A DNA stretch of 64,000 nt, from contig NZ_JNYE01000009.1 in the NCBI RefSeq assembly GCF_000717185.1, forward strand, positions 45,020 to 109,019, written 5' to 3'. Below the pieces are notes generated by a model, which was not told the DNA's origin, searched no databases, and was given only the letters and a program-made list of their open reading frames with translations. This DNA is from Kitasatospora phosalacinea. GTDB taxonomy: Bacteria; Actinomycetota; Actinomycetes; Streptomycetales; Streptomycetaceae. The position numbers and the translations under genes were made by a program. This document shows positions 5,236-21,190 of the stretch, piece after piece. Within the stretch, counting starts at the first letter, position 1. The number at the start of each line of letters is the position of its first letter.

Positions 5236-6146
5236 CGGGCTCCCCGCCAGATCACCGGGCAGAAATCGGGGTCGGCGTAGTCGGGGCGGCCGTCGGCGGT
5301 GCGGCGCACCAGCACGTCGTGGTTGTACGCGGCGGGGGAGCCGTCCGGGCGGGTGGCGTGCCGGTACTCGTTGGCGCCGTCCTGGAGGTGCAGCGAGACC
5401 GCCCGGCGCGGGAAGTCGGCCAGGTTGGCGCCGCTGCCGTGGTAGGTGCGGCAGTGGTGGAAGCTGACGTGCCCCTTCGGGATGACCACCGGGACCTTGC
5501 GGACCTCCGCGCCGTTGTGGGCGGCGTTGGCGGTCAGGATCGACTCCAGCTCGGAGCGGTCGCGCTGGGCGAAGTGCCGGGTGGCGTCCTCGCCGGAGGG
5601 CAGTTCCCGCCAGCGGTTGCTGCCGTCGACCATGGTGATGGTGCCGTTCTCCACCCCGCAGTCGTGGAACGGGATGAACGCGGTCAGCATCTCCTCCGAG
5701 GAGGAGGTGTGCCAGTAGTGCTTGTCGAAGTGCCACGGCACCTGGTTGGAGGGCTCCTCCGGCACCGGCGGCTTGAGGATCAGCGTCGACTGGAAGACCC
5801 GGATCTCCTCCGCCCCGGCGAGCAGCGCGGCGACGGCGCCGACCAGCGGCTTGCGCAGGAGCGCGCCGAGCGCGTCGCTCTCGTGGTGCACGTAGTCGTT
5901 GTGCCGCTGGACCGGCCCGTGCGCGGGCTCCCAGGCGGCCAGGTTCGGCGGCCGGACGGCCAGGGTGCGGTCGCGGTGGCCGTCGTAGTACGCGTCGGCC
6001 GCGGCCTGGAGGGCGTCGACCTCGGCGTCGGTGAACAGCTTCCCGGAGAGGTACCAGCCGTGCTCGCGGTAGCCGGCCACCTCCTCGGGGGTGGGCAGCA
6101 GGGCGCGCTCGGCCGCGGTCAGCTCGAACTCGGTCACGGTGGTCAC
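5232..6146 (-). CDS. PhyH-type Fe(II)/2-oxoglutarate-dependent dioxygenase
   Basis: A 304-residue phytanoyl-CoA dioxygenase family protein. The metal triad is visible as HFD in PWHFDKHYWHT and a distal His in CRTYHGSGAN, followed by the Arg region FPRRAVSLHLQ that normally holds 2-oxoglutarate. Such enzymes hydroxylate or halogenate free or carrier-bound substrates; the HxD motif is intact, so hydroxylation rather than halogenation is expected. The GTG start at 6146 has a strong AGGAGGAG sequence upstream. It sits inside the leftward operon after the hydroxymandelate synthase gene and overlaps E1-alpha by 4 nt. It is probably a tailoring hydroxylase acting on the aryl or amine unit. Confidence 0.85.
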   Translation of the reverse strand: MTTVTEFELTAAERALLPTPEEVAGYREHGWYLSGKLFTDAEVDALQAAADAYYDGHRDRTLAVRPPNLAAWEPAHGPVQRHNDYVHHESDALGALLRKPLVGAVAALLAGAEEIRVFQSTLILKPPVPEEPSNQVPWHFDKHYWHTSSSEEMLTAFIPFHDCGVENGTITMVDGSNRWRELPSGEDATRHFAQRDRSELESILTANAAHNGAEVRKVPVVIPKGHVSFHHCRTYHGSGANLADFPRRAVSLHLQDGANEYRHATRPDGSPAAYNHDVLVRRTADGRPDYADPDFCPVIWRGAR

Positions 6147-6204: not shown

Positions 6205-7239
6205 TCAGGCGGAGGTGGAGGCGGTGGCGCGCTGGCGTTCGACGGCCTCGTACAGGGCCTTGATGTTGGCGGTGCCGAAGGTGCCCGCGCCCTGGCGCTC
6301 GATCACCTCCAGGAAGAAGGTCCGCCGGGGGTGGGTGGAGCGGGCGAAGATCTGGAACAGCTGGCCGCCGTGGTCCTGGTCGACCAGGACGTTCAGCTCG
6401 CGCAGCGTCCCGACCGGGATCGCGGTGCCGCCGAGCCGCTCGGCCAGGGCGTCGTAGTAGGTGCCGGGGGTGGTGAGGAACTCGACGCCGTGCGCGCTCG
6501 CGGTGCGGACGGCGGTGGCGATGTCGCCGGTGCGGAAGGCCAGGTGCTGGACGCCCGCGCCGTCGTGGTCGGCGAGGAAGGTGTCGATCTGCCCGGCCCG
6601 GCGGCCGGTGTCCGGCTCGATCAGGGTGAAGGTGACGTCCCCGGAGGGGCTCTGCACCACGCTGGAGTCCATCCCCTGCTCGCCGACCGCGATGTACTCG
6701 CCGAAGATCCGGTGCATGCCGAGCGCGGCCTCGCAGAACAGCACGGCCCGCGCCAACTCCCCGGCGGGCACGCAGATCGCGACGTGGTCGAGGGCGTCCA
6801 GCAGCTCGCCGCCGACGGCCTCCGGGGCATCGGCCGGGGCATCGGCCGGGGTGGCGGTCGGGGCGTCGTCCGGCAGGGCGACGAAGCGCAGCGCGGTGTC
6901 GCCGAAGCCCGCGATCAGCGCGCCCTCCCGGTCCAGCACCTCGGCGCCGTGCCGTTCGGCCCGCTCCAGCGCGGCCCGCGGGTCGGTGCAGCCGAGCGCC
7001 AGCACGGCCACGCCCTCGCCGTGCCGCTCGACGTAGCGGGCCACCGGGTGGTCGGTGATCCCGCTGGAGAGCAGCCGCAGCCGGATGCTGCCCTGCCGCA
7101 GGTGCACGGCCTGCACCCCGGGCCTCCACACCGGCTGCTCGGCGTCGCGCCGGAAGCCGAAGCAGGTCTGCAGTTCGGTGGCGCGCTGCGCGGCGTCCGC
7201 GCAGTGGTACTCGACATGGGTGATCGTCTGGATCGACAA
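6205..7239 (-). CDS. hmaS: 4-hydroxymandelate synthase
   Basis: A 344-residue vicinal-oxygen-chelate dioxygenase of the HPPD/HMS family. It should convert 4-hydroxyphenylpyruvate to 4-hydroxymandelate with Fe(II) and O2, the first step of Hpg synthesis. Fe ligands are expected at His in ALDHVAI, His in VQHLAFRT and Glu in FFLEVIER. The C-terminal GTFGTANIKALYEAVE block is family-typical. The central DSSVVQSPSGDV...TLIEP segment reads like hydroxymandelate synthases (LIEP) rather than the NEP segment of homogentisate-forming HPPDs, and hmo and hpgT genes lie nearby. Start is TTG at 7239 with AGGGAG 5 nt upstream; the only other in-frame starts lie far upstream inside the KS gene. A plain HPPD is the main alternative. 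Confidence 0.88.
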   Translation of the reverse strand: MSIQTITHVEYHCADAAQRATELQTCFGFRRDAEQPVWRPGVQAVHLRQGSIRLRLLSSGITDHPVARYVERHGEGVAVLALGCTDPRAALERAERHGAEVLDREGALIAGFGDTALRFVALPDDAPTATPADAPADAPEAVGGELLDALDHVAICVPAGELARAVLFCEAALGMHRIFGEYIAVGEQGMDSSVVQSPSGDVTFTLIEPDTGRRAGQIDTFLADHDGAGVQHLAFRTGDIATAVRTASAHGVEFLTTPGTYYDALAERLGGTAIPVGTLRELNVLVDQDHGGQLFQIFARSTHPRRTFFLEVIERQGAGTFGTANIKALYEAVERQRATASTSA

Positions 7240-7307
7240 CTGGACTCCCTGAAAGCGGAGTTGAGAGCGGAGGTGCTGACCGGTGCGCAGGGGCGGGCCC
7301 TGGCGGC

Positions 7308-8570
7308 CTACTTGGTGGTACGGGTGGGCGTCGGCCCGAAGACCAGGCTGGTGTTGTGGCCGCCGAACGCGAAGGCGTTGCTCAGCGCGGCCCGCAGCAC
7401 AGCCGGACGGGCGGCGCCGCGGACGTGGTCCAGGTCGCACGCCGGGTCGGGCTCGTCCAGGTTGAGGGTCGGCGGCAGCAGCCCGCGGGCCACCGCCAGT
7501 GCGGTGACGGCGGCCTCCACCGCCCCGGCCGCGCCCAGCAGGTGGCCGGTGGCGCCCTTGGTGGAGCTGACGGCGGGCCGGTGCGCGCCGAACACCGCGC
7601 GCAGCGCGGCCGATTCGGCGATGTCGCCGAGCTTGGTGCCGGTGCCGTGCGCGTTGACGTAGCCGATGTCGGCGGCGTCCAGCCCGGCGTTGGCGAGGGC
7701 GGCGCGCATCGCGTCGGCGGCACCCGCGCCGTCCGGGCGCGGCATGGTCGGGTGGTGGGCGTCGGTGCTGGAGCCCCAGCCGATCAGCTCGGCGTACCCG
7801 GCCGCGCCGCGGGCCTCGGCGTGCTCGGCGCTCTCCAGCACCAGGACGGCGCTGCCGTCGCCCAGCACGAAGCCGTTGCGGCGGGCGTCGAACGGCCGGG
7901 ACGCCTGCGCCGGGTCGTCCCAACCCTGGGCCAGCGCACGGGCGTTGGTGAACGCGGAGACGATCGTCGGGTGCAGCGAGGCGTCCGTCCCGCCGCACAC
8001 CACCACGTCCGCGTCACCGGCCCGGATCAGCCGCAGCCCCTCGGCCACCGCCTGCGCACCGGCCGCGCAGGCCGTCACGATCGCGGTGCTGAAGCCGCGG
8101 ATGCCGTGCTTGATCGCGATCCGGGCGGTCGCCATGTTGGAGAGCATCCCGGGCAGCAGGTACGGGCTGACGCCGGGACGCCCGCGCTCCCGGCGCCGCC
8201 CCGCTTGCTGCTCGTAGGTCTCCAGGCCACCGCCGCCGGTGCCCAGCACCACGGCGGTGCGGCGGGCGTCGACGTCCCGGCCGACGACCAGGGCGGCGTC
8301 GGCCAGCGCGCCGTCCGCGGCGGCCAGCGCCAGCAGCACGAACCGGTCGACGCAGCGGGTCTCGGTCGGCGGCAGCACCTCCCGGCCGTCGACGTGCGGG
8401 GCGATCCCGGCGGCGGGCAGCCAGCCGTGCGCGACGTGGCCCTCCGGCACGGCGGTGATGCCGCTGCGCCCGGAGGTCAGCGCCGCGAAGACCTCGTGCG
8501 GGTCGCGGCCCAGCGAGGTGACCGTCCCGATGCCGGTGACGACGGCGCCCGGCCGCCCGGCCCGGCTCAC
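7308..8570 (-). CDS. Beta-ketoacyl-ACP synthase (type II KS, FabF-like) with intact triad
   Basis: A 420-residue condensing enzyme. The catalytic Cys lies in VTACAAGAQAV, the first His in NAHGTGTKLGD and the second His in GATGHLLGAAGA, giving a complete Cys-His-His set. The C-terminal NAFAFGGHNTSL loop is also canonical. It should catalyse decarboxylative Claisen condensation of carrier-bound acyl chains. The GTG start overlaps the stop of the ligase gene (GTGA). Unlike a classical KS-alpha/CLF operon, its partner condensing proteins lie upstream at 10345-11984, resembling aryl-polyene or highly reducing type II systems. No ketoreductase or dehydratase gene is adjacent. Confidence 0.9.
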   Translation of the reverse strand: MSRAGRPGAVVTGIGTVTSLGRDPHEVFAALTSGRSGITAVPEGHVAHGWLPAAGIAPHVDGREVLPPTETRCVDRFVLLALAAADGALADAALVVGRDVDARRTAVVLGTGGGGLETYEQQAGRRRERGRPGVSPYLLPGMLSNMATARIAIKHGIRGFSTAIVTACAAGAQAVAEGLRLIRAGDADVVVCGGTDASLHPTIVSAFTNARALAQGWDDPAQASRPFDARRNGFVLGDGSAVLVLESAEHAEARGAAGYAELIGWGSSTDAHHPTMPRPDGAGAADAMRAALANAGLDAADIGYVNAHGTGTKLGDIAESAALRAVFGAHRPAVSSTKGATGHLLGAAGAVEAAVTALAVARGLLPPTLNLDEPDPACDLDHVRGAARPAVLRAALSNAFAFGGHNTSLVFGPTPTRTTK

Positions 8571-10252
8571 CGGGCGCCCGCCGGGGCCGCCGGTGCCGCT
8601 GCGGTGTCCGCCGGGGCCGCCGCGGTGTCCGCCGGGGCCGCCGCGGCGAGGTGGCGCTCGCGCAGCAGGACCTTGCGGACCTTGCCGGTCGGGCCGAGCG
8701 GGAGGTCGTCCTCGCCGACCACCAGCACCGAGCGGACGGTCGCGGCGGTGTCCCCGTCGAGCGCGGCGAGCACCTCCGCGGTGCGGTCGGCGGCCGGGTC
8801 GGCGCCGTCGGCGAGGAGCAGCAGCACGTCGGTGACCACCCGGCCGCCGCCGTCCCGCACCGCGACGACCGTGCAGTCCTGCACGTCGGGGACGGCGGCC
8901 AGCACCCGCTCCTCGGACATCGCGGTGTACAGCCGCTTGCCGCCGCCGAGGTCGACCGCGTCGACCAGCCGGTCGACGTGGTAGTAGTAGCCCTCCTCGT
9001 CCCGGTACATCAGGTCGCCGGTGAGGAAGCGGCCGCGCAGCCGGGTGCGGTAGGTGGTGACCGAGTCGTTCCAGTAGCCGGGTGCCAACGTCGGTGAGGC
9101 GGTGGCGAGTTCGCCGACCTCGCCGGGGCCGAGCGGCTCGCCGTCCGGGCCGACCACCTCGCAGTCGACGAAGGTGTGCGGGCGGCCCACGCAGCGGCCG
9201 TACTTCTCGGTGCCGGGGGCGTGGGTGATGTGGAAGTGCGAGTGGCCCATCTCGGTCGAGCCCAGGCCGTCGACGAACACCGAGCCCGGCAGGCGGCCGC
9301 GGCCCTCGCGGGTGACGGTCTCCCGCGAGCCCTGCGCGATCAGGCGGCGGATGTGCGCCTCGTGGGCGCAGTCGCCGGTGTTCCACCACAGGCCGACCGA
9401 GGACAGGTCGCGGGCCGAGAGGTCCTGCCGGGCCAGGTCGGCCCAGGTGGTGGCGAAGCCGAACACGCTCTGCGGCCGCCAGCGCTCGATCGCCTCCAGC
9501 ACGGCCGGGCCGGTCTGCTGCGAGATCAGGTGCAGCCGGGAGTGGAAGCTGAGCGCCAGGTTGAGCGTGATCAGCGTCGCGGCGTGCGCGGCGGGCAGCG
9601 CGCTGAGCACCCGGTCGATGCCCTGCGGCCGGGGCAGCGCGGCGCGGTGCCGGATCGACGCGTACAGGCTGGCGTGCGAGTGCACCACGGCCTTGGGCAT
9701 CCCGGTGGTGCCGGAGGAGTGGGTGATCGCCACCGGGTCGTCCGCGTGGTGCCGGTACGGGGCGGGCGCCGACTCCGGGTCGCCGGTGCCGAGGTCGGCG
9801 GCGTCGGCGAGCACCGGGGCCGCCGGGTCGTGCCCGGCCAGTTCGGCCCGGTGCGCGGGGTCGGCGAGGATGCCGACGGCGCCGAGGCGGGCGATGTAGC
9901 GGGCCGCCCGTTCGCCCTCCACCCCGGGGTTGAGCAGCGCCGGGACCGCGCCCAGCCGGGCCAGCGCCAGGAAGGACAGCACCTGGTCGGCGGCGGCGCT
10001 CGCGTACACCACCACCACGTCCCGCCGGCCGACCCCGAGGGCGTGCAGCGCGGCGGCCCGGGCCCGGACGGCGCGGTCGGCCCCGCGCAGGGTGAGCGCC
10101 TCCCCGGCGGGACGGCCGTCCACCGTGGTGTCGAAGGACAGCAGCGGGTCGTCGAGGCCGGTGCCCAGGGCGGTCCTGCTGGTCAGCACGTTCCCGGCGC
10201 CGACGTCCGGGTCGTTCGCCAGGAGGCTGCGGATACTGCGGATGCTGCTCAC
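8567..10252 (-). CDS. ANL-superfamily AMP-forming acyl/aryl ligase
   Basis: A 561-residue adenylating enzyme. Motifs seen are the P-loop HSSGTTGMPKAVVHSH, GLGSTEMGHSHF (A5), FLTGDLMYRDEEGYYYHVDR (A7/A8) and GPTGKVRK with the A10 lysine. It should activate a carboxylic acid as acyl-AMP and load it on a carrier protein or CoA. The C-terminus ends in an Ala/Pro repeat (APADTA units), an expansion also seen in its neighbours. I prefer the GTG at 10252 because GGAGGG precedes it; a GTG six codons earlier is possible. The substrate could be a 4-hydroxybenzoyl-type acid, Hpg or a fatty acid; it is not decidable here. Confidence 0.85.
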   Translation of the reverse strand: MSSIRSIRSLLANDPDVGAGNVLTSRTALGTGLDDPLLSFDTTVDGRPAGEALTLRGADRAVRARAAALHALGVGRRDVVVVYASAAADQVLSFLALARLGAVPALLNPGVEGERAARYIARLGAVGILADPAHRAELAGHDPAAPVLADAADLGTGDPESAPAPYRHHADDPVAITHSSGTTGMPKAVVHSHASLYASIRHRAALPRPQGIDRVLSALPAAHAATLITLNLALSFHSRLHLISQQTGPAVLEAIERWRPQSVFGFATTWADLARQDLSARDLSSVGLWWNTGDCAHEAHIRRLIAQGSRETVTREGRGRLPGSVFVDGLGSTEMGHSHFHITHAPGTEKYGRCVGRPHTFVDCEVVGPDGEPLGPGEVGELATASPTLAPGYWNDSVTTYRTRLRGRFLTGDLMYRDEEGYYYHVDRLVDAVDLGGGKRLYTAMSEERVLAAVPDVQDCTVVAVRDGGGRVVTDVLLLLADGADPAADRTAEVLAALDGDTAATVRSVLVVGEDDLPLGPTGKVRKVLLRERHLAAAAPADTAAAPADTAAAPAAPAGAR

Positions 10253-10344
10253 GGTGTGGATCCCTCCCACGGGCCACGGCGCTGGCCGTGCGGGTGCGGT
10301 GCGGCGTCCGGGGACGCGTGCGGACGGGGTTCAGAAGGGGGCGT

Positions 10345-10878
10345 TCAGGCAGTGGCAGTGGCAACGGCAGCGGCGGCGAGCAGGACGGCGGCGGCCTGAT
10401 CGGGGCCCTGTTCGGCGCTCGGCGCGGCCTGCTCGGCGGCGATCACCAGGACGTGGTCGGCGTCGCCGTCGGCGAGCAGCAGTTCGGCCAACTCCAGCGC
10501 GTCCGGCGGGACTTCACCGGGAGCGGCGGCCTCCGGCGGGCTGATCGCGACGACCGGCCCGGTCAGCTGCCAACGGCTGGCGACGTGCCCGAGGACGGCG
10601 TTCGGGTTGGACTGGAAGAACAGCAGCGGCGGCATCCGGTGCCCCGCGGCGGCGGTGTCGATGGCCAGCGCGGTGGCGCGGTCGCCCCCGGCACTGGCGA
10701 GCAGCAGCGCGGTGCGGCGCGGCTCGCCCGGCTCGCCGTAGCCCGCGGCCAGGCAGCGTTCGGCGACGGCCGCGACCAGCGGGTTGAAGGTCGAGGCCGA
10801 GAAGCCGGGCAGCGGGGGCGGCGGCTCACCGGGCGGCCAGTGCGCGGCGGCGAGGGTGCGGGTGCGCGGGGTGCTCAT
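10345..10878 (-). CDS. Free-standing beta-ketoacyl synthase-like (chain length factor-type) protein
   Basis: A 177-residue protein resembling only the N-terminal part of a condensing enzyme, of the Ketoacyl-synt_2 type annotated as 'beta-ketoacyl synthase chain length factor' in aryl-polyene clusters. Recognisable pieces are LLLASAGGDRATALAID and LFFQSNPNAVLGHVASRW. There is no catalytic Cys context. It probably acts as a non-catalytic partner that shapes a KS pocket or chain length. The ATG overlaps the KS2 stop (ATGA), so the two are co-translated. The C-terminus is an Ala-rich tail. Family assignment is from motif memory rather than a search. Confidence 0.65.
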   Translation of the reverse strand: MSTPRTRTLAAAHWPPGEPPPPLPGFSASTFNPLVAAVAERCLAAGYGEPGEPRRTALLLASAGGDRATALAIDTAAAGHRMPPLLFFQSNPNAVLGHVASRWQLTGPVVAISPPEAAAPGEVPPDALELAELLLADGDADHVLVIAAEQAAPSAEQGPDQAAAVLLAAAAVATATA

Positions 10879-11980
10879 GCGGCGGCCACCAGGAGCGCGG
10901 TGTTGGCGCCGCCGAACGCCGAGTTGAGGCTCAGCGCGCAGCGGGGAGGGACGTCCGGACGCCGCTCCGCGAGGACGAGGTCCAGCCCGACCTCCGGGTC
11001 CGGCCCCAGCCAGCCCGCGTTGACCGGCAGCCGCCCGCTGTCCAACGCGCCGATGGTGACGGCGAGTTCGAGCAGCGCGGAGGCCTCCAGGGCGTGCCCG
11101 TGGACGGACTTGCTGGAGCTGACCGGCAGCCCGTCCAGCGCCTCGCCGAACACCTCGCGCAGTGCCCGCGCCTCCGCCAGGTCCGACATCGGCGAACCGG
11201 TGCCGTTGGCGTTGACGTAGTCCACCCCGGACGGGGCGACCCCCGCCCGGGCCAGCGCGGACCGGACGGCCCGGGCCACGCCCGCGCCGTCGGGCCGCGG
11301 ACGGCACACGTGGTGGGCGTCCCCCGAGCGGCCCCAGCCCGCCAGCCGGGCCAGCGGGCGGACGCCGCGCGCGGCGGCGGCGGTGTCCGCCTCGACGACC
11401 ACGGCCACCGCGGCGTCGCCGAGCAGGGTGCCGCTGCGCCCGCTGCTGAACGGCCGCAGCCGCCCGTCGCGGGCCAGTGCCCGGCCCGCGTCGAAGGCCG
11501 CGAAGACGCCCGGCTCCACCAGGTGCCCGGCCGCGACCACCACCCGGGGGTGGCGGCCGGAGCCGACCAGTGCGGCGGCGTCGGCCACCGCGGTGGCGGC
11601 CGCCACGCAGGCGCCGGTGTAGACCCGGTCCACCCCGGCCAGGCCGAGGGCGGCGGCGCCCTGCGCCACCTCGGCGGCGACCTCGCGGGTGCGCAGGTCG
11701 CTGTGCAGGGCGAGCAACAGCGGTGCACCGCCGGGAAGTCCGGACTGCTCGCAGGCGTCGGCGACGGCACCCAGCACCGCGGCGGCGAGCGGCGGCGGAT
11801 CGGCCAGCAGGGCCGCCCGCCGGGTGCCGCGCCGGGAGACGTCGAAGCGGGTCACCTCGGCGAACCCGGCGGCCGAGCCCGCGGCGGTCGCGGCGGCCAG
11901 CGGGGCGGGCCCGGCGCCGAAGGCGCTGAGCACCCCGAGGCCGGTGAACACCGGCCGTCCGGCCGGCGGTGCGCTGCTGC

Positions 11981-11984
<4 letters not shown>
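10875..11984 (-). CDS. Beta-ketoacyl synthase homologue with His-to-Asn change
   Basis: A 369-residue thiolase-fold condensing enzyme. The nucleophile is present (VYTGACVAAATAV), as is the second His (KSVHGHALEAS). The position equivalent to the first active-site His reads Asn (VNANGTGSPMSD instead of NAHGTGT). C-terminal LNSAFGGANTALL is normal. The Asn may weaken decarboxylation, so it might act as a CLF-like subunit, an acyltransferase or a specialised KS. The ATG overlaps the ACP stop. It lies between the small CLF-like protein and the two ACP genes. Confidence 0.85.
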
Positions 11985-12363
<379 letters not shown>

Positions 12364-12367
<4 letters not shown>

Positions 12368-12630
12368 GCGGCGGTCCCGGCGGTGGCCGCGACCCGGCGG
12401 GCCACGTCGGCGGTGAACTGGTCGAGCGTCATCAGGGCGGTGGTCTCCAGCTCGTCCATGTCGAACTTGATCCCGAACTCGTCCTCGACCTGGACCGAGA
12501 GCTCGGCGAGGGCCAGCGATTCGAGGTCGAGCCCGGCCGGGCCGAGGTCGGTGTCGCCGGTGACCTCGGCGGTGTCGTAGTTCATCTCGGCGAGGGTCGC
12601 GAGGACGAACTCGCGGATGCGCTCCTGCAT
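12364..12630 (-). CDS. Acyl carrier protein
   Basis: An 88-residue stand-alone carrier protein of normal ACP length. The attachment Ser is in GLDLESLALAEL, followed by EDEFGIKFD, the helix II-III region. The ATG at 12630 has GAGGAG upstream. It lies directly downstream of the ligase gene at 12732, so the natural guess is that this ligase loads it. It is one of four discrete carrier proteins in the cluster, all expected substrates of the PPTase at 23454. Confidence 0.85.
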
Positions 12631-12731
12631 GGTGGTGCTCCTCGTACGGGGTGGTCGGGGTGCGGTGCGGTCTGCGGTGCGATGCGGTGCGGTTCGGTGC
12701 GGTCTGCGGTGCGGTGCGGTGTGCGGTCGGA

Positions 12732-14147
12732 TCAGGGGGTGGCGGCGCGCAGCGCGGCGGTGTCGCGGACGAGCTTGCCGGTGGCGGTGCGGGGCAGCGC
12801 CGGGAGGAAGGTGAGCTGCCGGGGTCGCTTGAAGGCGGCCAGTTCGCGGGTCAGCGCCTCCCGGACGGCGTCGGCCCGGTCGGTGGCCCCGGGGCCCTCG
12901 GTGGCCAGGTAGGCCTCGATGGCGCCGTCCGTGAAGACCACCACGGCCTCGCGGACCCCGGGCAGTGCCGCGAGGGTGTGCTCGACCTCGTTGAGGTCGA
13001 CCTTGAGGCCGCCGATGGAGACCTGCGAGTCGCGCCGCCCGAGCACGGTGACCCGGCCGCTCGCCGGGTCGACCCGGCCCGCGTCGCGGGTGTGCAGCCA
13101 GCCGTCCGACCAGCGGGCGGGGTCGGTGAGGCCGGGGTAGGGGGAGGCGGCCATCGCGAGGTGCAGCTCGCCGCCGTCCTCGCGCAGCTCCGTGCCGTGG
13201 ACGGGCGCGGCCCCGGGGTGCAGGGTGCCGTCGAGGTCGGTGGCGATGACGCCGCGCTCGGTCATCCCGTACATGGTGCCCAGCGGCACGCCGTAGCGTT
13301 CGCGGAACGCCGCGGGCAGCCCGGGGCGGACCAGCTCGCCGGCGACGATCATCCGGCGCAGCTGCGGCAGCGGCGGGGGAGCGGTCGCACCGGCCAGCAG
13401 CTCGGCGTGGAACGGGACGCCGATCACGGTGGTCGGCCGGTCGTCCCCGGCGACCGCGGCCAGGATGCCCGCCGTGGTCGTCCGGGCGGGGACGGTCAGC
13501 GGCACCCGGGCGTGCAGGCTGTTGAGCAGCCCGCCGACCAGGCCCAGGACGTGCACCATCGAGGAGAGCAGGACGACCCGCTCCCCGGCCTTCGGGAACG
13601 CCTCCAGCCGGGCGTAGCAGTCGAGTTCGCGCAGCAGGTCGGCGGCGGTGCGGGCGATCACCTTGGCCGGGCCGGTCGAGCCCGAGCTCAGCTGCACCAG
13701 CGCGTGGCCGGTCGCGGCCGGACGGCCGCCCGGCCGCGCCACCGGCACCGGGTCGGTCTCGGCGAAGCCGCGCATCGCCGCGGCGGGGCCGTGCGCCGAC
13801 TCGACCAGGACCTGGGGCGCCAGCCGTTCGACGGCGAGCGCGACCTCGTGGTCGGTGAGCCGGTGGTCGAGCAGGACGGCCTGGGCGCCCAGCTGCCAGC
13901 AGGCCAGCAGCGCGGCGGCGTAGCCGAGCGAGGGCGCCAGCCGCAGCGCGGCCGTGCCGCCGCGGGCCAGGCCCGCGGCGGTGAGCCGGGCGGCCTGCTC
14001 GGCGACCAGGGCGCGCAGCGCGGCGCGGTCCACGGGGGAGCCGAAGCGCAGGCACTCCTGGTCGTCGGGCCCGGCCAGCAGGAAGCGGTCCACCCAGTCG
14101 TGCGGGGCACCGCACGGCAGGGCGGGGAGAGAGGGAGATCCGGTCAA
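12732..14147 (-). CDS. Short ANL-superfamily AMP ligase (adenylation enzyme)
   Basis: A 471-residue adenylating enzyme, first gene of the leftward operon. Core motifs are LSSGSTGPAKVIART (P-loop), MYGMTERGVI (A5), LHTRDAGRVDPASG (A7), LGRRDSQVSIGGLKVDLNEVE (A8) and PRTATGKLVRD with the A10 Lys. It is shorter than fatty acyl-CoA ligases and similar in size to ligases that load acyl groups on discrete ACPs. Start choice: TTG at 14147 has GGAG 5 nt upstream, while GTG at 14153 has no ribosome-binding sequence. The promoter region upstream contains the DasR-like palindrome at 14242. The substrate may be Hpg or a related aryl acid. Confidence 0.83.
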   Translation of the reverse strand: MTGSPSLPALPCGAPHDWVDRFLLAGPDDQECLRFGSPVDRAALRALVAEQAARLTAAGLARGGTAALRLAPSLGYAAALLACWQLGAQAVLLDHRLTDHEVALAVERLAPQVLVESAHGPAAAMRGFAETDPVPVARPGGRPAATGHALVQLSSGSTGPAKVIARTAADLLRELDCYARLEAFPKAGERVVLLSSMVHVLGLVGGLLNSLHARVPLTVPARTTTAGILAAVAGDDRPTTVIGVPFHAELLAGATAPPPLPQLRRMIVAGELVRPGLPAAFRERYGVPLGTMYGMTERGVIATDLDGTLHPGAAPVHGTELREDGGELHLAMAASPYPGLTDPARWSDGWLHTRDAGRVDPASGRVTVLGRRDSQVSIGGLKVDLNEVEHTLAALPGVREAVVVFTDGAIEAYLATEGPGATDRADAVREALTRELAAFKRPRQLTFLPALPRTATGKLVRDTAALRAATP

Positions 14148-14241
14148 CGCCACTCCACGAAGGGGAGGTTGGAAGGAGGCCGGTCGCGACCAGCGGGGCC
14201 GGTCCGGCGCCCCGACCATGACACAGGCGTTCGAGCCGAAG

Positions 14242-14257
14242 CAAGGTCTAGACCATT
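14242..14257. promoter_or_regulatory. Candidate DasR-responsive element (dre)
   Basis: Sequence CAAGGTCTAGACCATT contains a perfect 10-bp palindrome, GGTCTAGACC, and matches 12 of 16 positions of the DasR box I recall (ACTGGTCTAGACCACT). It lies in the 180-bp region between the leftward ligase operon and the rightward hmo operon, about 95 bp from one start and 70 bp from the other. Control of both units by the GlcNAc-sensing GntR repressor DasR would follow. The match is direct; function is inferred. Confidence 0.6.
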
Positions 14258-14326
14258 GGGGGTGTCGCCTCCTACGCTGCCGGGCCGGAGCGGGCCCGAC
14301 CGGGGCTTGCCCGGAAAGGCAGACCC

Positions 14327-15409
14327 TTGGACGCACTGGAACTCTCCGACTTCGAACGCGCCGCCCGCGCCGAACTCCCGGCCGCGACCTGGGACTTCGT
14401 CCAGGGCGGCAGCGGCGCCGAACGCACCCTCGCCGCCAACCGCGCCCGGTTCGCGCACTGCCGCCTGCGCCCGCGCACCATGGTCGACGTCTCCACCACC
14501 GACCAGCGCCTCACCCTGCTCGGCAGCCCCCTGGAGACCCCGATCGGCATCGCGCCGATGGCCTACCACCAGCTGCTCCACCCCGAGGGCGAGGTCGCCA
14601 CCGCCCGCGCGGCCGGGCGTGCCGGAGCGCTCATGGTCGCCGGGATCTTCGCCAGCCGCACCCTGGAGTCCATCGCCGCAGCCGCCACCGGCCCGCTCTG
14701 GCTCCAGCTCTACTGGCTGCGCCGCCGCGACGTGCTCGCCGCCCTGGTCGAACGCGCCGAGAGCGCCGGGTACCGCGCCCTGGTGCTGACCGTGGACGCC
14801 CCCCGGATCGGCCGCCGCCTGCGCGACGCCCGCAACGGCTTCGCGATCCCCCCGCACGTCCGCGCCGTCAACGTCGACCAAGCCGTGATGGCCGCCAGCC
14901 ACCGCGCGGCGCACGGCAGTTCGGGCATCGCCGACCACGCCAGGGAGCAGTTCGACCCCACCCTGACCTGGGCCGACCTGGCCTGGCTGCGCGAACGCAC
15001 CGCCCTGCCGATCGTCCTCAAGGGCGTCCTCACCGCCGAGGACGCCCGCCTCGCCGCCGAGCACGGCGTCGACGCCGTCCTGGTCTCCAACCACGGCGGC
15101 CGCCAGCTCGACGGTGCCCTCCCGTCCCTCGCCGCCCTGCCCGAAGTGGCCGCCGCCGTGCCGCCGAACCTGCCCGTCCTCCTGGACGGCGGTGTCCGGA
15201 CGGGCACGGACGCTGCCCTCGCGATCGCCCTCGGCGCCCGCGCCGTCCTGATCGGCCGCCCCGCCCTCTGGGGCCTCGCCGTCGACGGCGAGGACGGCGT
15301 CGCCCGGGTCCTCGACCTCCTGAAGTCCGAACTCGACGACACCCTCGCCCTCCTGGGCCGCCCCCGCCTCGCCGACCTCGACCCCACCGCCGTGACCCCA
15401 CTGCCGTGA
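14327..15409 (+). CDS. hmo: 4-hydroxymandelate oxidase (FMN-dependent 2-hydroxyacid oxidase)
   Basis: A 360-residue TIM-barrel flavoprotein of the glycolate/lactate/mandelate oxidase family. Landmarks are the FMN-site segment PIGIAPMAY, LQLYWLR, TVDAPRIGRRLRD, the Lys in PIVLKGVLT, the catalytic His in VSNHGGRQLDG and the phosphate loop DGGVRTGTD. It should oxidise 4-hydroxymandelate to 4-hydroxybenzoylformate, the second step to Hpg. Start is TTG at 14327 with GGAAAGG 7 nt upstream. It is divergent from the ligase operon and followed by the esterase and hpgT. Without hmaS and hpgT nearby I could only call a generic hydroxyacid oxidase. Confidence 0.88.
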   Translation: MDALELSDFERAARAELPAATWDFVQGGSGAERTLAANRARFAHCRLRPRTMVDVSTTDQRLTLLGSPLETPIGIAPMAYHQLLHPEGEVATARAAGRAGALMVAGIFASRTLESIAAAATGPLWLQLYWLRRRDVLAALVERAESAGYRALVLTVDAPRIGRRLRDARNGFAIPPHVRAVNVDQAVMAASHRAAHGSSGIADHAREQFDPTLTWADLAWLRERTALPIVLKGVLTAEDARLAAEHGVDAVLVSNHGGRQLDGALPSLAALPEVAAAVPPNLPVLLDGGVRTGTDAALAIALGARAVLIGRPALWGLAVDGEDGVARVLDLLKSELDDTLALLGRPRLADLDPTAVTPLP

Positions 15410-15531
15410 CCCCGTAGCCCGGCGGTCCCGAGCACCCGGACCAGCACCCGACCAGCACTCGACCAGTGCCCCGACCGACACCCCGACCAGCGCCGCCGAC
15501 CCGCGGCCCGATCCGACCCCAGGAACACCCC

Positions 15532-16470
15532 TTGCCACTGCACCCCCAGGCCGAGGCCCTGCGCCGGCAGCGCGCCGCGGCCGGCACGCCACCGCTGTAC
15601 ACCCGCACGCTCGCCGAGGCCCGTGCCGCGGACCTCGCCGACATCCGGGCCGCCGCCGGGAACCCGGAACCGGTCGGCTCCGTCACGGAGCTCACCGTCC
15701 CGGGCCCCGGCGGGCCGCTGCCGCTGCGGGTCTACCGCCCGGCCACCGGCACGGACGGCCGACTCCCGGTCCTGCTCTACCTGTTCGGCGGCGGCTGGGT
15801 GCTCGGGTCGCTCGACACCGGCGACGCGCTCTGCCGCCGCCTCACCAACGAGGTCGGCTGCGTCACCGTCTCGGTCGGCTACCGGCTCGCCCCCGAGCAC
15901 CCCTTCCCGGCGGCCGTCCACGACGTGCTCGCCGCCGCCGAGTGGATCGCCGCGCACGCCGCCGAACTGGGCGCCGAACCGGGGCGGTTGGCCGTGGCGG
16001 GCGACAGCGCGGGCGGCAACCTGGCCGCCGCCCTGACCCTGCTGGCCCGGGAGCGCGGCGGCCCCGCGCTGCGGCACCAGCTGCTGGTCTACCCGAACAC
16101 CGACCACGCCGCGGACACCCCGTCCGTCCGCGAGCACGACGACCCGCTGCTGTTCAACCGCCGCTCGGTGGCCTGGTACTGGGGCCACTACCTGGCCGAC
16201 CCGGCCGACGGCGCCGACCCGCTGGCCTCCCCGCTGCGCGCCCCCTCGCTGGCCGGGCTGCCGCCCGCCACCGTCATCACCGCCGAGTACGACCCGCTGC
16301 GCGACGAGGGCGAGGAGTACGCCGGGGCCCTGCGCGCCGCGGGCGTCCCCGTCGAGCTGCGCCGCTACGACGGCGTGCCGCACGGCTTCTTCGCGATGTC
16401 CGGCGTCCTGGACGACGGCCGCGCCGCCCAGCAGTACGCCGCCGACCGACTGCGCGAGGCCCTCCGATGA
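15532..16470 (+). CDS. HSL-type alpha/beta hydrolase (esterase/thioesterase candidate)
   Basis: A 312-residue hormone-sensitive-lipase family hydrolase. The nucleophile elbow is GDSAGGN, the acid lies in AEYDPLRDEG and the His in GVPHGFF. The oxyanion-hole HGGG motif reads FGGGW (LYLFGGGWVLG), so its first His is Phe. It lies between hmo and hpgT and overlaps hpgT (ATGA), so a role in aryl-acid processing, for example thioester or ester hydrolysis, is plausible. Start is TTG at 15532 with AGGAA upstream; the open frame extends 22 codons further but without a good ribosome-binding site. The 120 bp upstream is degenerate ACCAG-rich sequence. Confidence 0.8.
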   Translation: MPLHPQAEALRRQRAAAGTPPLYTRTLAEARAADLADIRAAAGNPEPVGSVTELTVPGPGGPLPLRVYRPATGTDGRLPVLLYLFGGGWVLGSLDTGDALCRRLTNEVGCVTVSVGYRLAPEHPFPAAVHDVLAAAEWIAAHAAELGAEPGRLAVAGDSAGGNLAAALTLLARERGGPALRHQLLVYPNTDHAADTPSVREHDDPLLFNRRSVAWYWGHYLADPADGADPLASPLRAPSLAGLPPATVITAEYDPLRDEGEEYAGALRAAGVPVELRRYDGVPHGFFAMSGVLDDGRAAQQYAADRLREALR

Positions 16471-17804
16471 GCACGGTCACCACCCTCCCGCTGGGCGACC
16501 TGCACGCCAGCCTCGCCGACCCGCTGCTGGACGCGATGACCTTCCTCAACGAGGTCACCGAGCGCTACCCGGGCGCGCTCTCCTTCGCCCCCGGCCGCCC
16601 GCACGAGGGCTTCTTCGAACCCGAGGACGTCCACGCGTACCTGGACACCTACCTCACCCACCTCGCCGAGCGCGGCCTGAGCGGCAGCGCCGTGCGCACC
16701 GCGCTGTTCCAGTACGGGCCGACCAAGGGCATCGTCGCCGACCTGGTCGCCCGCACCCTCGCCAACGACGAGGGCCTGGACGTGGACCCGGAGGCGCTGG
16801 TGCTCACCGTCGGCGCGCAGGAGGGCATGCTGCTGGTGCTGCGCGCGCTGTGCGCCACGGCCGAGGACGTGCTGCTGGTCAGCTCGCCCTGCTACGTGGG
16901 GGTCACCGGCGCGGCCCGGCTGCTCGACCTGGCGACCGTCCCCGTCCCGGAGGGCCCCCGGGGCGGACCGGACCCGGCGGCCGTGCGCGCGGCGGCCCGC
17001 GCCGTCCGGGCCTCCGGCCGCCGCCCGCGGGCGCTCTACGTGGTCCCCGACTTCGCCAACCCGTCCGGCACCAGCATGCCGCTCGCGGCCCGGGCGGGGC
17101 TGCTGGAGGCGGCGGCCGAGGAGGGGCTGCTGGTGATCGAGGACAACCCGTACGGCTTCTTCTCCCGTGAGCCGGGCGAACAGCCGGGCGAGCGCCCCAC
17201 CCTGAAGGCCCTGGACGGGAACCGCGGCCGGGTGGTCCACCTCGGCTCGTTCGCCAAGACCTGCTTCCCCGGCGCCCGGCTCGGCTACGTGGTCGCCGAC
17301 CAGCGGGTGGCCGCCCCGGACGGCCGGACGACGCTGCTGGCCGACGAGCTGGCCAAGCTGAAGAGCATGACGACGGTCAACACCCCGGCGCTCAGCCAGG
17401 CCGTGATCGGCGGCATGCTGCTGCACCACGACTGCCGCCTGCGCGCCGCCAACGCCCCCGCCCGCGCCCACTACGCGGCCAACCTGGCCGTTCTGCTGAG
17501 GGAGTTGGAGCGGCACTTCCCGGCGGCCGAGCGGGCCCGGCTGGGCGTGTCCTGGAACGAGCCCGAGGGCGGCTTCTTCGCCGTGCTGGACGTGCCGTTC
17601 ACCGCCGACGAGGCGGCGATGGAGCGCTGCGCCCGCGACCACGGGGTGCTCTGGACTCCGATGGCCCCGTTCTACCCGGCGGGCGGCGGCGAGCGCCGGC
17701 TGCGGCTGTCGATCAGCGCCCTGAGCGCGCCGCAGATCGAGGCGGGGACGGCCCGACTGGCCGCCTTCGTCCGGTCGGCCTGCGTCCGGGCCGCCGCGGG
17801 CTGA
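16467..17804 (+). CDS. hpgT: 4-hydroxyphenylglycine aminotransferase
   Basis: A 445-residue fold-type-I aminotransferase of the MocR/Aro8-like subgroup to which HpgT belongs. Seen are FQYGPTKG, VGAQEGMLLVL, PDFANPSGTSM (Asn-Pro loop), VIEDNPYGFF (cofactor Asp and Tyr), GSFAKTCFPGARLGY with the PLP Lys, and RLRLSIS for the carboxylate Arg. It should transaminate 4-hydroxybenzoylformate to L-4-hydroxyphenylglycine, often with tyrosine as amino donor, which regenerates 4-hydroxyphenylpyruvate for HmaS. The ATG overlaps the esterase stop. A perfect palindromic terminator follows 10 bp after the stop. Confidence 0.85.
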   Translation: MSTVTTLPLGDLHASLADPLLDAMTFLNEVTERYPGALSFAPGRPHEGFFEPEDVHAYLDTYLTHLAERGLSGSAVRTALFQYGPTKGIVADLVARTLANDEGLDVDPEALVLTVGAQEGMLLVLRALCATAEDVLLVSSPCYVGVTGAARLLDLATVPVPEGPRGGPDPAAVRAAARAVRASGRRPRALYVVPDFANPSGTSMPLAARAGLLEAAAEEGLLVIEDNPYGFFSREPGEQPGERPTLKALDGNRGRVVHLGSFAKTCFPGARLGYVVADQRVAAPDGRTTLLADELAKLKSMTTVNTPALSQAVIGGMLLHHDCRLRAANAPARAHYAANLAVLLRELERHFPAAERARLGVSWNEPEGGFFAVLDVPFTADEAAMERCARDHGVLWTPMAPFYPAGGGERRLRLSISALSAPQIEAGTARLAAFVRSACVRAAAG

Positions 17805-17860: not shown

Positions 17861-18625
17861 CTACCGGATCCGGGCCGAGAACAGCCGGGCCGAGTAGGAC
17901 ACCGCCGCGGCCGTCAGCACCGCGACGATCAGCAGCCCCTGCCAGACCACGCTGTCGCCGGGGCGCCCGGAGAACAGCGCCCGCATGCCCTCCACCGCCC
18001 AGTAGAAGGGGTTCCACTCCGCGACCTTCTGCAGCCACACCGGCGCCAGCGCCAGCGGCAGCAGCACGCCGGAGAGCAGGCCGATCGGCTGGGCGACGGT
18101 GTTCACCACCGGCGCCATCGCGGCGTCGTTGGGCAGCGCCAGGGCGATGCCGTACGAGACCGCCGAGGTCATCAGCGCCAGCAGGGCGAGCAGCACGTAG
18201 GCCAGCAGCAGGCTCAGCGGCTCGACCCGCAGGCCGAACGGCAGCGCGACCAGCGTGATGATGACCGCCTGGACGAGCAGGCCGAGCGTCTCGCGCAGCG
18301 CCCGCCCCAGCAGCAGGGCGAGCCGGCTGACCGGGGTCACCCGGGAGCGCTCGATGATGCCGGCCTTCAGCTCGCCGAGCAGGCTGAAGCCGGTGTAGAG
18401 GCCGCCGAAGATGCAGAGCACCGCCAGCAGGCCGGGGACGTAGATCTGGTAGGCCTCGGCGTAGGTGCTCGCGCCCATCGGCTTGAGCACCTGCTTCAGC
18501 AGCGGGGCGAACAGCAGCAGGTAGAAGACCGGCTGGGTGATGCCGACCACGATCCAGATCGGTGTGCGCCACATCAGCAGCACTTGCCGCTGGAAGACCA
18601 GCCAGGTGTCACGGGCGAGCTTCAC
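17861..18625 (-). CDS. ABC-2 type transporter permease
   Basis: A 254-residue membrane protein with about six hydrophobic segments. A typical ABC-2 layout is visible: cytoplasmic start (VFQRQVLLMWRTP), first helices, the conserved loop ELKAGIIERSRVTPVSR, and a C-terminal pair ending NPFYWAVEGMR plus a last helix. It resembles DrrB-type drug-efflux permeases. With the ATPase encoded immediately upstream it should export the cluster product and give self-resistance. The GTG start at 18625 has only a weak ribosome-binding sequence, consistent with coupling to the ATPase gene 35 bp away. Confidence 0.87.
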   Translation of the reverse strand: MKLARDTWLVFQRQVLLMWRTPIWIVVGITQPVFYLLLFAPLLKQVLKPMGASTYAEAYQIYVPGLLAVLCIFGGLYTGFSLLGELKAGIIERSRVTPVSRLALLLGRALRETLGLLVQAVIITLVALPFGLRVEPLSLLLAYVLLALLALMTSAVSYGIALALPNDAAMAPVVNTVAQPIGLLSGVLLPLALAPVWLQKVAEWNPFYWAVEGMRALFSGRPGDSVVWQGLLIVAVLTAAAVSYSARLFSARIR

Positions 18626-18660: not shown

Positions 18661-19614
18661 TCAGGACTGTTCGATGGAGCGGCCGGTGCGGGCCAGGAAG
18701 ACGTCGTCCAGGCTCGGCCGCTGGAGCTGCACCGTCCCGGGGACGATGCCCGCCCCGTTCAGGACGCTCAGCAGCTGCGGGACGGCCGCCGCACCGTCGT
18801 CCAGGTACAGGCGCAGGCCGTCCTCGCCCGGCTCCAGCCGGTGCAGGGAGCGCTGCCCGCGCAGGGCGTCGGCGGCGGGCCCGGCCTCCCCGGCGGCGAG
18901 GCCGAGCAGCACGACGTCGCCGGAGATCTCGCGCTTGAGCGCCTCGGGCGTGCCCTCCACCACGACCTGGCCGTGGTCGACGATCGCGACCCGGTCGCAG
19001 AGCGCGTCGGCCTCGTCCAGGTAGTGGGTGGTGACCACGACCGTCATGCCCCCGGTGCGCAGCCGCTCGATCTCGGCCCACACCTGGCCGCGGCTGGCCG
19101 GGTCCAGGCCCACCGTCGGCTCGTCCAGGAACAGCACCTTCGGGGAGTGGATGACCCCGAGGGCGATGTCGACCCGGCGGCGCTGGCCGCCGGAGTAGGT
19201 GCTGCAGTGGCGGTCGGCGAACTCGGCCAGCTCGAACGCCGCGACGGCGTCCGCGGCCTGCCGCAGCGCCTCGGCCTTGCGGCTGCCGTACATCCGGGCC
19301 TGCATGACCAGTTCCTCCCGCCCGGTGACGGCGTCGGCGGTGCCGCCGCCCTGGGCGACGTAGCCGATCCGGCGGCGGACCCCGGCCGGGTCCGTCAGCA
19401 GGTCGGCCCCGGCGACCAGGGCCGCGCCGCCGTCCGGGCGGATCAGGGTGGCGAGCATGCGCAGCGTGGTGGTCTTCCCGGCGCCGTTGGGGCCGAGGAA
19501 TCCGAAGATCTCGCCCGCCCGGACGTCCAGGTCGATGCCGCGGACGGCGTCGACGACGGTCCGGCCGTGCTTGCCGGACGGGTAGGACTTGCGAAGTCCC
19601 TTGGTCTCGATCAA
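18661..19614 (-). CDS. ABC transporter ATP-binding protein (DrrA-like)
   Basis: A 317-residue ATPase. Walker A is GPNGAGKTT, the Q-loop lies in GYVAQGGGTADAVTG, the signature is YSGGQRRRVD, Walker B is VLFLDEPTVGLDP and the switch His is in VVTTHYLDEAD. The C-terminal extension ending in PSLDDVFLARTGR is the hallmark of daunorubicin-resistance (DrrA) type drug exporters. It powers the adjacent permease. Start is TTG at 19614 with GGGAG 6 nt upstream. It is transcribed with the glycosyltransferase and the third ACP. Confidence 0.9.
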   Translation of the reverse strand: MIETKGLRKSYPSGKHGRTVVDAVRGIDLDVRAGEIFGFLGPNGAGKTTTLRMLATLIRPDGGAALVAGADLLTDPAGVRRRIGYVAQGGGTADAVTGREELVMQARMYGSRKAEALRQAADAVAAFELAEFADRHCSTYSGGQRRRVDIALGVIHSPKVLFLDEPTVGLDPASRGQVWAEIERLRTGGMTVVVTTHYLDEADALCDRVAIVDHGQVVVEGTPEALKREISGDVVLLGLAAGEAGPAADALRGQRSLHRLEPGEDGLRLYLDDGAAAVPQLLSVLNGAGIVPGTVQLQRPSLDDVFLARTGRSIEQS

Positions 19615-20864: not shown

Positions 20865-21190
20865 CGGCGCACCAGCTCCGCCAGGTCGCCGACGGTCAGC
20901 GCGGCCAGCCCGTCCAGGTCGAGGCCGGCCCGCAGCGCGCCCAGGTCGGCGCCGAAGCGCTCCCGCAGCAGCGCGTCCAGGGCGGCGAACTCGCTCTCGT
21001 CCAGGGCGAGATCGGCGTCCAGCCGGTCCCCGGGGGCGAGCGACTCTGCCCATTCGGGCAGAGCGTCGGCCGCCTCGGCCAGCGCGGCCAGCAGCCCCGG
21101 GCCGAGGACGGGCGACGGCGCGCCGGACGGCCCGGAGGCCGCTCCGGAAAAGGTTTCTTGGTGTACGGAGGAATGCTGGGGATCAGTCAA
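20861..21190 (-). CDS. Acyl carrier protein-like protein
   Basis: A 109-residue protein whose C-terminal 75 residues look like a carrier domain: an acidic stretch, then LALDESEFAALDALLRERFG with Ser in the phosphopantetheine position (DES rather than DSL), then a TVGDLAELV end helix. The N-terminus is Pro/Gly/Ser-rich. TTG at 21190 with GGAG 7 nt upstream is preferred; the frame is open to 21268 but would overlap the divergent KASIII promoter. It heads the leftward glycosyltransferase-exporter unit, so the sugar may be added to a carrier-bound intermediate (inference). Confidence 0.65.
   Translation of the reverse strand: MTDPQHSSVHQETFSGAASGPSGAPSPVLGPGLLAALAEAADALPEWAESLAPGDRLDADLALDESEFAALDALLRERFGADLGALRAGLDLDGLAALTVGDLAELVRR

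Follow-up and report, generated by a model that had tools for sequence, protein, structure and literature searches.

A predicted 4-hydroxyphenylglycine route within a type II ketosynthase/carrier protein cluster that also encodes a putative diazotase-type ligase in Kitasatospora phosalacinea

4-Hydroxyphenylglycine (Hpg) has been a marker for antibiotics made by nonribosomal peptide synthetases (NRPSs), and the clusters for glycopeptides, the calcium-dependent antibiotic (CDA) and nocardicin carry Hpg cassettes. The window analysed here is a stretch of 64,000 nucleotides of Kitasatospora phosalacinea (G000:C9:45020-109019, from a genome of 8.6 Mb in 340 contigs), in which the genes of an Hpg route are part of a cluster of discrete ketosynthases (KSs) and acyl carrier proteins (ACPs). 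Clusters of the latter kind are described in PMC10777205, namely the ava cluster for avenalumic acid in Streptomyces sp. RI-77 and the cma cluster for p-coumaric acid in Kutzneria albida. These type II polyketide synthase (PKS) clusters encode an acyl-ACP ligase (A1), two ACPs (A2 and A3), a KS (A4), a chain length factor (A5) and an ATP-dependent diazotase (A6); A1 puts an aromatic starter on A3, A2 holds the malonyl unit, and A4/A5 extend (PMC10777205). PMC10698177 reports a KS-CYF chemistry for AmcF-AmcG of cispentacin, and the epoxinnamide paper (PMC9321520) is reported to bring Hpg and type II PKS together in cinnamoyl-containing nonribosomal peptide clusters.

The order LIG2-ACP1-ACPx-KS-AmcG-like-LIG1 in the window equals the order A1-A6 as given in PMC10777205; for A1-A5 this correspondence is judged by order and predicted function, not by the Ava and Cma sequences. 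By gene order the KS/ACP core is predicted to belong, as a variant, to an already described kind of type II PKS. The claim of the first-pass annotation that such a combination of ligase, ACP and KS is undescribed has to be given up. The most unusual feature is the presence of a diazotase-type ligase (LIG1) together with the Hpg route, which that annotation did not mention. We give a probability of about one half to an NRPS-free pathway that would combine the Hpg route, loading of a discrete ACP, extension by KS1 and a nitrite-dependent diazotase chemistry. The following genes are concerned:

DEC, 1923..3194, minus strand: fold-III pyridoxal phosphate decarboxylase, ornithine/lysine decarboxylase-like (Pfam PF02784), close subfamily only
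E1-beta, 3191..4183, minus strand: 2-oxoacid dehydrogenase E1 beta, thiamine diphosphate-dependent (Pfam/NCBIfam), 4-base overlaps with its neighbours
E1-alpha, 4180..5121, minus strand: 2-oxoacid dehydrogenase E1 alpha, thiamine diphosphate-dependent (Pfam/NCBIfam)
PhyH, 5232..6146, minus strand: Fe(II)/2-oxoglutarate oxygenase family (Pfam PF05721), HxD and distal His motifs present
HmaS, 6205..7239, minus strand: predicted 4-hydroxymandelate synthase, by solved-structure scores and residue signature
KS1, 7308..8570, minus strand: FabF-type ketosynthase, Cys-His-His intact
LIG1, 8567..10270, minus strand: AMP-forming ligase, nearest to the AvaA6/Tri17 clade (NCBIfam NF058622)
AmcG/CYF/A5-like protein, 10345..10878, minus strand: short KS-fold protein without the Cys nucleophile motif (NCBIfam NF058659, 40 bits, cut-off 80)
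A4-type KS, 10875..11951, minus strand: Cys kept, Asn for the His of HGTGT
ACPx, 11981..12247, minus strand: A3-like carrier protein with its Ser in LGSLEL; the PP-binding match, E 0.066, stays below cut-off
ACP1, 12364..12630, minus strand: carrier protein, Ser in LDLESL (Pfam PP-binding and NCBIfam)
LIG2, 12732..14093, minus strand: stand-alone adenylation ligase, A1-like by position
Hmo, 14327..15409, plus strand: FMN-dependent oxidase of alpha-hydroxyacids, taken from its context for a 4-hydroxymandelate oxidase
ABH, 15532..16470, plus strand: alpha/beta hydrolase (Pfam PF07859)
HpgT-type, 16467..17804, plus strand: class I aminotransferase (Pfam PF00155), named by context

The genes were called with a home-made GC-frame scorer, so that start codons are approximate, and were named via Pfam and NCBIfam. 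The minus-strand run from LIG2 to DEC forms one block with several 4-base overlaps between genes, from which Hmo, ABH and HpgT diverge across a gap of 233 bases. The first-pass annotation had correctly placed HmaS, Hmo and HpgT within 12 kb together with two AMP ligases and two ACPs, all of which lie in 6205-17804. The two KSs and the chain length factor (CLF)-like protein that it listed must together be KS1, the KS at 10875-11951 and the AmcG-related protein at 10345-10878. The plain label CLF does not suit the protein at 10875-11951, which keeps its Cys, and was rejected.

In the proposed pathway HmaS would convert 4-hydroxyphenylpyruvate to 4-hydroxymandelate, Hmo would oxidise the latter to 4-hydroxybenzoylformate and the HpgT-type enzyme would transaminate this to Hpg; these steps have sequence support. 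LIG2 may adenylate an acid of the Hpg route and load it on ACPx or ACP1, and this acid could equally be Hpg, 4-hydroxybenzoylformate or 4-hydroxymandelate. KS1, the only FabF-type KS of the cluster with an intact triad, would add a malonyl unit, and the A4-type KS, together with the short AmcG-like protein, may pass on or shape the acyl chain without lengthening it. Nitrite would be activated with ATP by LIG1, which would then turn the amine of a substrate, most likely Hpg or an intermediate derived from it, into a diazo or another N-N species; the latter may persist or disappear at a later stage. Oxidation or joining of carbon might be the part of PhyH and the E1 pair, and the glycosyltransferase (GT), KSIII/p266/ACP3 and the transporter encoded further to the right may serve decoration and export. 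Of what the first-pass annotation had proposed for the use of Hpg, the NRPS-free setting with discrete ACPs and KSs stands, while Hpg itself would be only one candidate for loading and extension, beside 4-hydroxymandelate and 4-hydroxybenzoylformate, the latter also named in that annotation.

Among solved structures HmaS is closest to 2r5v (274 bits, entry molecule 'PCZA361.1'), which we take to be the hydroxymandelate synthase of A. orientalis. The next matches are 7yvv (253 bits) and 3zgj (249 bits), and the 4-hydroxyphenylpyruvate dioxygenase (HPPD) of S. avermitilis, 1t47, reaches 169 bits. The stretches that read PINEP and NFKAL in 1t47 are TLIEP and NIKAL in HmaS. The residue alignment of HmaS comprises 49 rows, duplicates counted; the Ile of NIKAL, a Phe in 1t47, is found in all 48 rows that have letters at this place, and Ile/Leu is kept at the place of the HPPD Asn. 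The change from Phe to Ile at the NIKAL place presumably marks hydroxymandelate synthases as against HPPDs; by this signature HmaS is of the synthase type. Four HPPD-family proteins are encoded by G000, three of the HmaS type (on contigs C9, C16 and C109) and one on C63 with 37% identity, which is probably a plain catabolic HPPD.

The assignments of the two following enzymes depend on context. Hmo scores 306 bits as 4-hydroxymandelate oxidase, 312 as glycolate oxidase and 348 as L-lactate oxidase (the last summed over two domains), so the scores do not separate these functions and the name is given by context. For the aminotransferase no HpgT model matched in the Pfam/NCBIfam scan, and it is named by its place. 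Where HpgT is missing from the fetched stretch, an HpgT-like homologue is encoded elsewhere in the genome (10/10 genomes, best 56-70%), and the same holds for Hmo (8/8 genomes, best 50-85%); these identities exclude the window's own HpgT and Hmo. The idea that Hmo and HpgT are optional parts was dropped because of these homologues, of which matches of 50-57% may be other enzymes.

The cluster is not confined to this strain. In 200 genomes of the family a KS search found full-length copies with 83-92% identity in nine further genomes and one copy in two pieces (G081); the remaining matches were at 79% or lower. The same gene order is seen in 19 relatives, four of which show it in part: G108 lies at a contig end, and G058, G066 and G050b are without some of Hmo, ABH and HpgT. 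It is largely kept in 28 named loci, which come from Kitasatospora, Streptomyces, Actinokineospora, Kribbella, Solihabitans, Micromonospora, Streptantibioticus, Actinacidiphila and two metagenome bins, and the block is also present in Streptacidiphilus. The tblastn table of cluster genes has 53 rows, at least five of which repeat others (L073, L074, L076, L093 and L123 repeat G014, G096, G171, G157 and L084). HmaS is present in 48 of the 53, each time with KS1, LIG1 and PhyH, and it sits between PhyH and KS1 in the KS operon across genera; the five rows that lack it are L099, two rows cut by contig ends (G108 and L085) and two clusters included for comparison (L117 and L118). Since the order recurs in relatives and HmaS keeps its partners, the arrangement is not due to chance. 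Two further copies of the cluster were seen in G000 itself, on C16 (L071, L125) and C109 (L072, L124).

LIG1 is the protein on which the proposed nitrite chemistry depends. It matches the AvaA6 model of NCBIfam (NF058622) with 480.7 bits, the next model reaching 151. Among solved structures it scores 399 bits with 8ztz, 328 with Tri17 (9bq0/8tf7), 244 with 9xb8 and at most 112 with others. Tri17 is named in PMC11705231. Judged by these scores, the nearest clade of LIG1 is that of the nitrite-using diazotases AvaA6 and Tri17; this one of the two AMP ligases listed in the first-pass annotation is not obviously a loading ligase. A ligase of G389 with 41% identity to LIG1 has an even lower AvaA6 score (439) and adjoins a nitrosuccinate lyase (695 bits, over the curated cut-off) and a 3-amino-4-hydroxybenzoic acid (3,4-AHBA) synthase-like protein. 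Both ligases share the motifs NTGDxAHxxHI and DGLGSSEMG. Among the best 120 of 1626 homologues of LIG2 and the best 120 of 1773 homologues of LIG1 there are close relatives, none named as function-tested.

Nitrite genes are found within clusters of the family. In G050 CreE/CreD (nitrosuccinate synthase and lyase) follow 157 bases past DEC in the same direction, the lyase with 592 bits at a curated cut-off of 650. G058 has a second, shorter cluster, Hmo-LIG2-ACP1-LIG1-KS1-HmaS-PhyH-prephenate dehydrogenase-CreE-CreD, in which an opposite-strand gene separates LIG2 from ACP1; ABH and HpgT are divergent there, and the lyase is over the cut-off. The same short cluster occurs in G066, where CreE is present without an adjacent lyase. 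In some members nitrite may thus come from nitrosuccinate synthase and lyase, and G000 would need another source.

Several findings weigh against a diazotase pathway in the window strain. The 480.7 bits of LIG1 stay well below the curated AvaA6 cut-off of 975. No match to nitrosuccinate lyase was obtained in the G000 genome; its three PF00206 proteins, the family to which CreD presumably belongs, resemble fumarase, ArgH and PurB by eye. The best CreE-like protein of G000 has 39% identity, and such proteins at 37-42% occur in 20 of 24 genomes. A lyase over the cut-off is encoded by eight of 22 cluster-bearing genomes, in seven of the eight away from the compared cluster. The 3,4-AHBA synthase (AvaH, PF01959) likewise gave 0 matches in the G000 genome, where its partner enzyme was not searched, so there is no known aromatic amine substrate. 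The substrates known for diazotases are aryl amines or of the hydrazine type; Hpg is not known to be among them. Use of nitrite by LIG1 is therefore likely, from sequence and neighbourhood, for the cluster family and less certain for the G000 strain, which lacks a lyase and 3,4-AHBA synthase and has only the CreE-like protein of 39%.

These gaps are also what favours the strongest alternative, according to which LIG1 is an ordinary acyl-ACP ligase: two ligases would load two acids, one of them from the Hpg route, and KS1 would join or extend them without any N-N chemistry, which comes close to the idea of the first-pass annotation. In favour of such an enzyme, LIG1 has retained the C-terminal Lys and the adenylation motifs SSGTTG and TGD. 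However, LIG1 scores far from acyl-CoA ligases, it shares the two motifs given above with ligases that adjoin CreE/CreD, and nitrite genes lie inside the HmaS-LIG1-KS1 clusters of G050, G058 and G066 (in the last the synthase only). We regard this alternative as a serious one, to which about a third of the weight falls. Within the preferred diazotase pathway, a more detailed proposal is tentative and rather unlikely as it stands: the Hpg amine might be diazotised by an ANL-type ligase with nitrite, either free or as a carrier-bound beta-keto intermediate, to give an aryl diazo ketone, from which ring closure with the carbon of the malonyl unit might yield a 4-hydroxy-5-(4-hydroxyphenyl)pyrazole-3-carboxyl unit.

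The two FabF-type KSs differ in their catalytic residues. Cys-His-His is kept in KS1 in 48 of 48 rows and in three added sequences. The A4-type KS was compared in a set of 48 sequences, which includes at least four duplicates and three sequences from loci without a seen HmaS (G108, L085, L099). In all 48 the Cys is kept and one catalytic His is lost; at the place of the HGTGT His there is Asn in 46 and Gly in one (G050b), while the C109 copy keeps this His and has Gln for the other. All four comparators, namely two AmcF-type proteins and the KSs of L117 and L118, have an intact triad. In G058 and G066 the short clusters retain KS1 and show neither an A4/A5 pair nor ACPx. A KS without the HGTGT His is presumably non-elongating. 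With an intact triad in KS1 and a lost His in the A4-type KS, elongation would be the task of the former and not of the latter. Condensation by both KSs is doubtful on the same ground, against the first-pass annotation, which spoke of type II condensing enzymes.

The AmcG-like protein beside the A4-type KS raises the question whether the pair makes a cyclopentenone from 2-oxoglutarate, as in cispentacin or coronafacic acid biosynthesis, to which Hpg would then be attached. NCBIfam matches to AmcG, AmcF and AmcB were obtained, all below cut-off, and the KS-CYF chemistry is documented in PMC10698177. On the other hand, AmcG reaches half its cut-off, two AmcF-type sequences keep the Cys-His-His that the A4-type KS has lost, and a KS-CYF pair is not seen in either of the short clusters, G058 or G066. 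The ligases at the AmcH place in two AmcG-positive clusters match LIG2 and LIG1 with 46 and 33 bits only; as neither ligase resembles them, ring formation of the cispentacin type was rejected as the leading explanation and is kept as an improbable rival.

Two clusters that served for comparison deserve a separate remark. L117 and L118 (in G152 and G142, two genomes of Streptomycetaceae that stand outside the cluster family) contain the LIG2-ACP-KS-AmcG part with an AurF-like oxygenase and a short-chain dehydrogenase/reductase (by eye). L117 also has PabA/PabB-like and UbiD/UbiX-like genes (by eye) and an A3-type ACP fused to the KS. This gene content fits an aromatic-acid starter.

That no NRPS is involved had been proposed before, together with the suggestion to check the DNA to the left. 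The right edge of the window is the contig end, and to its left contig C9 continues for 45 kb. No NRPS is found in the window or among the called genes of these 45 kb, the longest of which encodes 949 aa, so an NRPS to the left of the window was discarded, and there are no C-A-T modules in the Hpg/KS cluster over the same range. It could still be that Hpg feeds an NRPS elsewhere in the genome and that the KS cluster is a separate neighbour. G000 has 26 condensation-domain matches, and none of the 14 listed is on C9. In relatives with a single chromosome the nearest condensation domains among the matches listed are at a distance of about 380 kb (G167), 400 kb (G050) and 290 kb (G140); from the second G050 copy the distance is about 107 kb, and in G171 it is about 190 kb. 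Given these distances, and with HmaS within the KS operon across genera and all three HmaS-type genes of G000 inside copies of the KS cluster, a distant NRPS appears most improbable as the destination of Hpg.

Proteins with a stand-alone condensation domain are found in both further copies of G000 (C16 and C109) and, in other subfamilies, at the edge of the cluster. The one in the C16 copy adjoins a protein that resembles amino acid--[acyl-carrier-protein] ligases, with 280 bits at a cut-off of 357. In the 53-row tblastn table the window copy has neither of the two.

The least credible alternative, that the HmaS homologue is an HPPD which makes homogentisate, so that no Hpg is formed, can draw on the 4HPPD cut-off of NCBIfam, which HmaS exceeds (302.9 vs 277), and on the depositors' label 4-hydroxyphenylpyruvate dioxygenase of 7yvv and 3zgj, two of its three best solved relatives at about 250 bits, which counts against an Hpg route; yet both have residues of the hydroxymandelate synthase type in alignments with HmaS, 2r5v is the closest structure, the Ile and Ile/Leu residues are kept, a separate HPPD-like protein is encoded on C63, and HmaS is accompanied by Hmo and HpgT.

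Beyond the genes for the Hpg route and the KS/ACP core, the window encodes a second sub-block and further accessory proteins:

ABC-2 transporter permease, 17861..18625, minus strand
DrrA-type ABC transporter ATPase, 18661..19614, minus strand
GT, 19704..20864, minus strand: macrolide-type glycosyltransferase
p109, 20861..21190, minus strand: carrier-like protein by eye, no Pfam match, Ser place usually Glu
KSIII, 21308..22222, plus strand: FabH-like, Cys-His kept, His for Asn
ACP3, 22264..22653, plus strand: third carrier protein
p266, 22657..23457, plus strand: KASIII-fold protein, possible KSIII partner
PPT, 23454..24206, plus strand: phosphopantetheinyl transferase
GNAT acetyltransferase, 24311..24817, minus strand: close subfamily only
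DUF6271 protein, 24814..26118, minus strand: close subfamily only
SARP-type regulator, 26757..29732, minus strand

The structure model of p266 has a pLDDT of 83.7, and its best Foldseek match is AbyA1 (E 2e-9), followed by FabH entries, with TM values of about 0.5-0.6. At the nucleophile place there is Ser or another residue (by eye), and a conserved Cys lies four residues earlier. KSIII with Cys-His-His beside the degenerate p266 recalls what we take to be the arrangement of PqsC/PqsB. A second acyl group may come from, or be transferred by, KSIII and p266 with ACP3 and the phosphopantetheinyl transferase, and the presence of GT and transporter genes suggests glycosylation and export. In p109 the phosphopantetheine Ser is apparently lost in most members; the C109 copy is fused to GT and has the Ser (by eye). 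Homologues of LIG1, the ABC transporter, GT, KSIII and p266 also occur together in L144 (G289:C1:2322500-2342400), without HmaS or KS1 and next to a protein of 1821 aa which looks acyl-CoA carboxylase-like by eye.

The ends of the cluster vary between subfamilies. DEC, GNAT and DUF6271 are carried by the close subfamily, in which the DUF6271 protein is 80-94% conserved. Many other clusters have a gene for a DUF3050 (haem-oxygenase-like) protein at the place of DEC, downstream of E1-beta, which is a non-homologous replacement. Many of them also have a methyltransferase gene that separates Hmo from ABH, and a condensation protein is encoded at their far end. DEC was considered as a BtrK-like aminoacyl-ACP decarboxylase, and this was rejected since ornithine/lysine decarboxylases score higher (best solved match 5gjm with 133 bits, BtrK 63 bits). 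The E1 pair was not found by tblastn in the Actinokineospora stretches, and no E2/E3 is present beside E1-alpha/E1-beta among the named cluster genes.

An Hpg route built into a compact KS/ACP operon thus occurs in many actinobacteria, with three copies in G000. If Hpg is diazotised as in the more detailed proposal given above, Kitasatospora and other actinobacteria would use Hpg with type II KS enzymes, and without an NRPS, in a chemistry that forms N-N bonds, and an elongating KS would have been co-opted as a non-elongating partner. The family-wide loss of a His in the A4-type KS offers a natural series for how elongating ketosynthases might turn non-elongating. Among the papers listed in the literature searches, which could have missed one, no description of the cluster or its product was found.

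How the cluster stands to the known systems can be stated as follows. With the glycopeptide, CDA and nocardicin clusters it shares the chemistry of HmaS, Hmo and HpgT, and it differs from them by having no C-A-T modules. The products of the epoxinnamide type (PMC9321520) are nonribosomal peptides, whereas no NRPS is in view here. The likeness to cispentacin (PMC10698177) consists in a short AmcG-related KS-fold protein beside a KS and an ACP with a weak AmcB match; the differences are the AmcG score of 40 at a cut-off of 80, AmcF and AmcB matches that are also below cut-off, the broken KS triad and the lack of an AmcH-like ligase. With the CreE/CreD/CreM system of the cremeomycin type (PMC11705231) the family shares nitrite genes in the clusters of G050, G058 and G066 (synthase only) together with a ligase of the same clade; in contrast to that system no lyase is found in G000, and the substrate amine would be new. 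The likeness to ava and cma goes beyond gene order, since ACPx has a Trp after the Ser (by eye) as the starter ACP A3 has (PMC10777205); the A3-type His corresponds to Ala in ACPx. Unlike ava and cma, the window cluster has HmaS, Hmo, HpgT and PhyH as well as a further KS with an intact triad, the 3,4-AHBA synthase for the starter is missing from G000, and the A4-type KS has lost a catalytic His, a residue not compared in the Ava and Cma A4 proteins.

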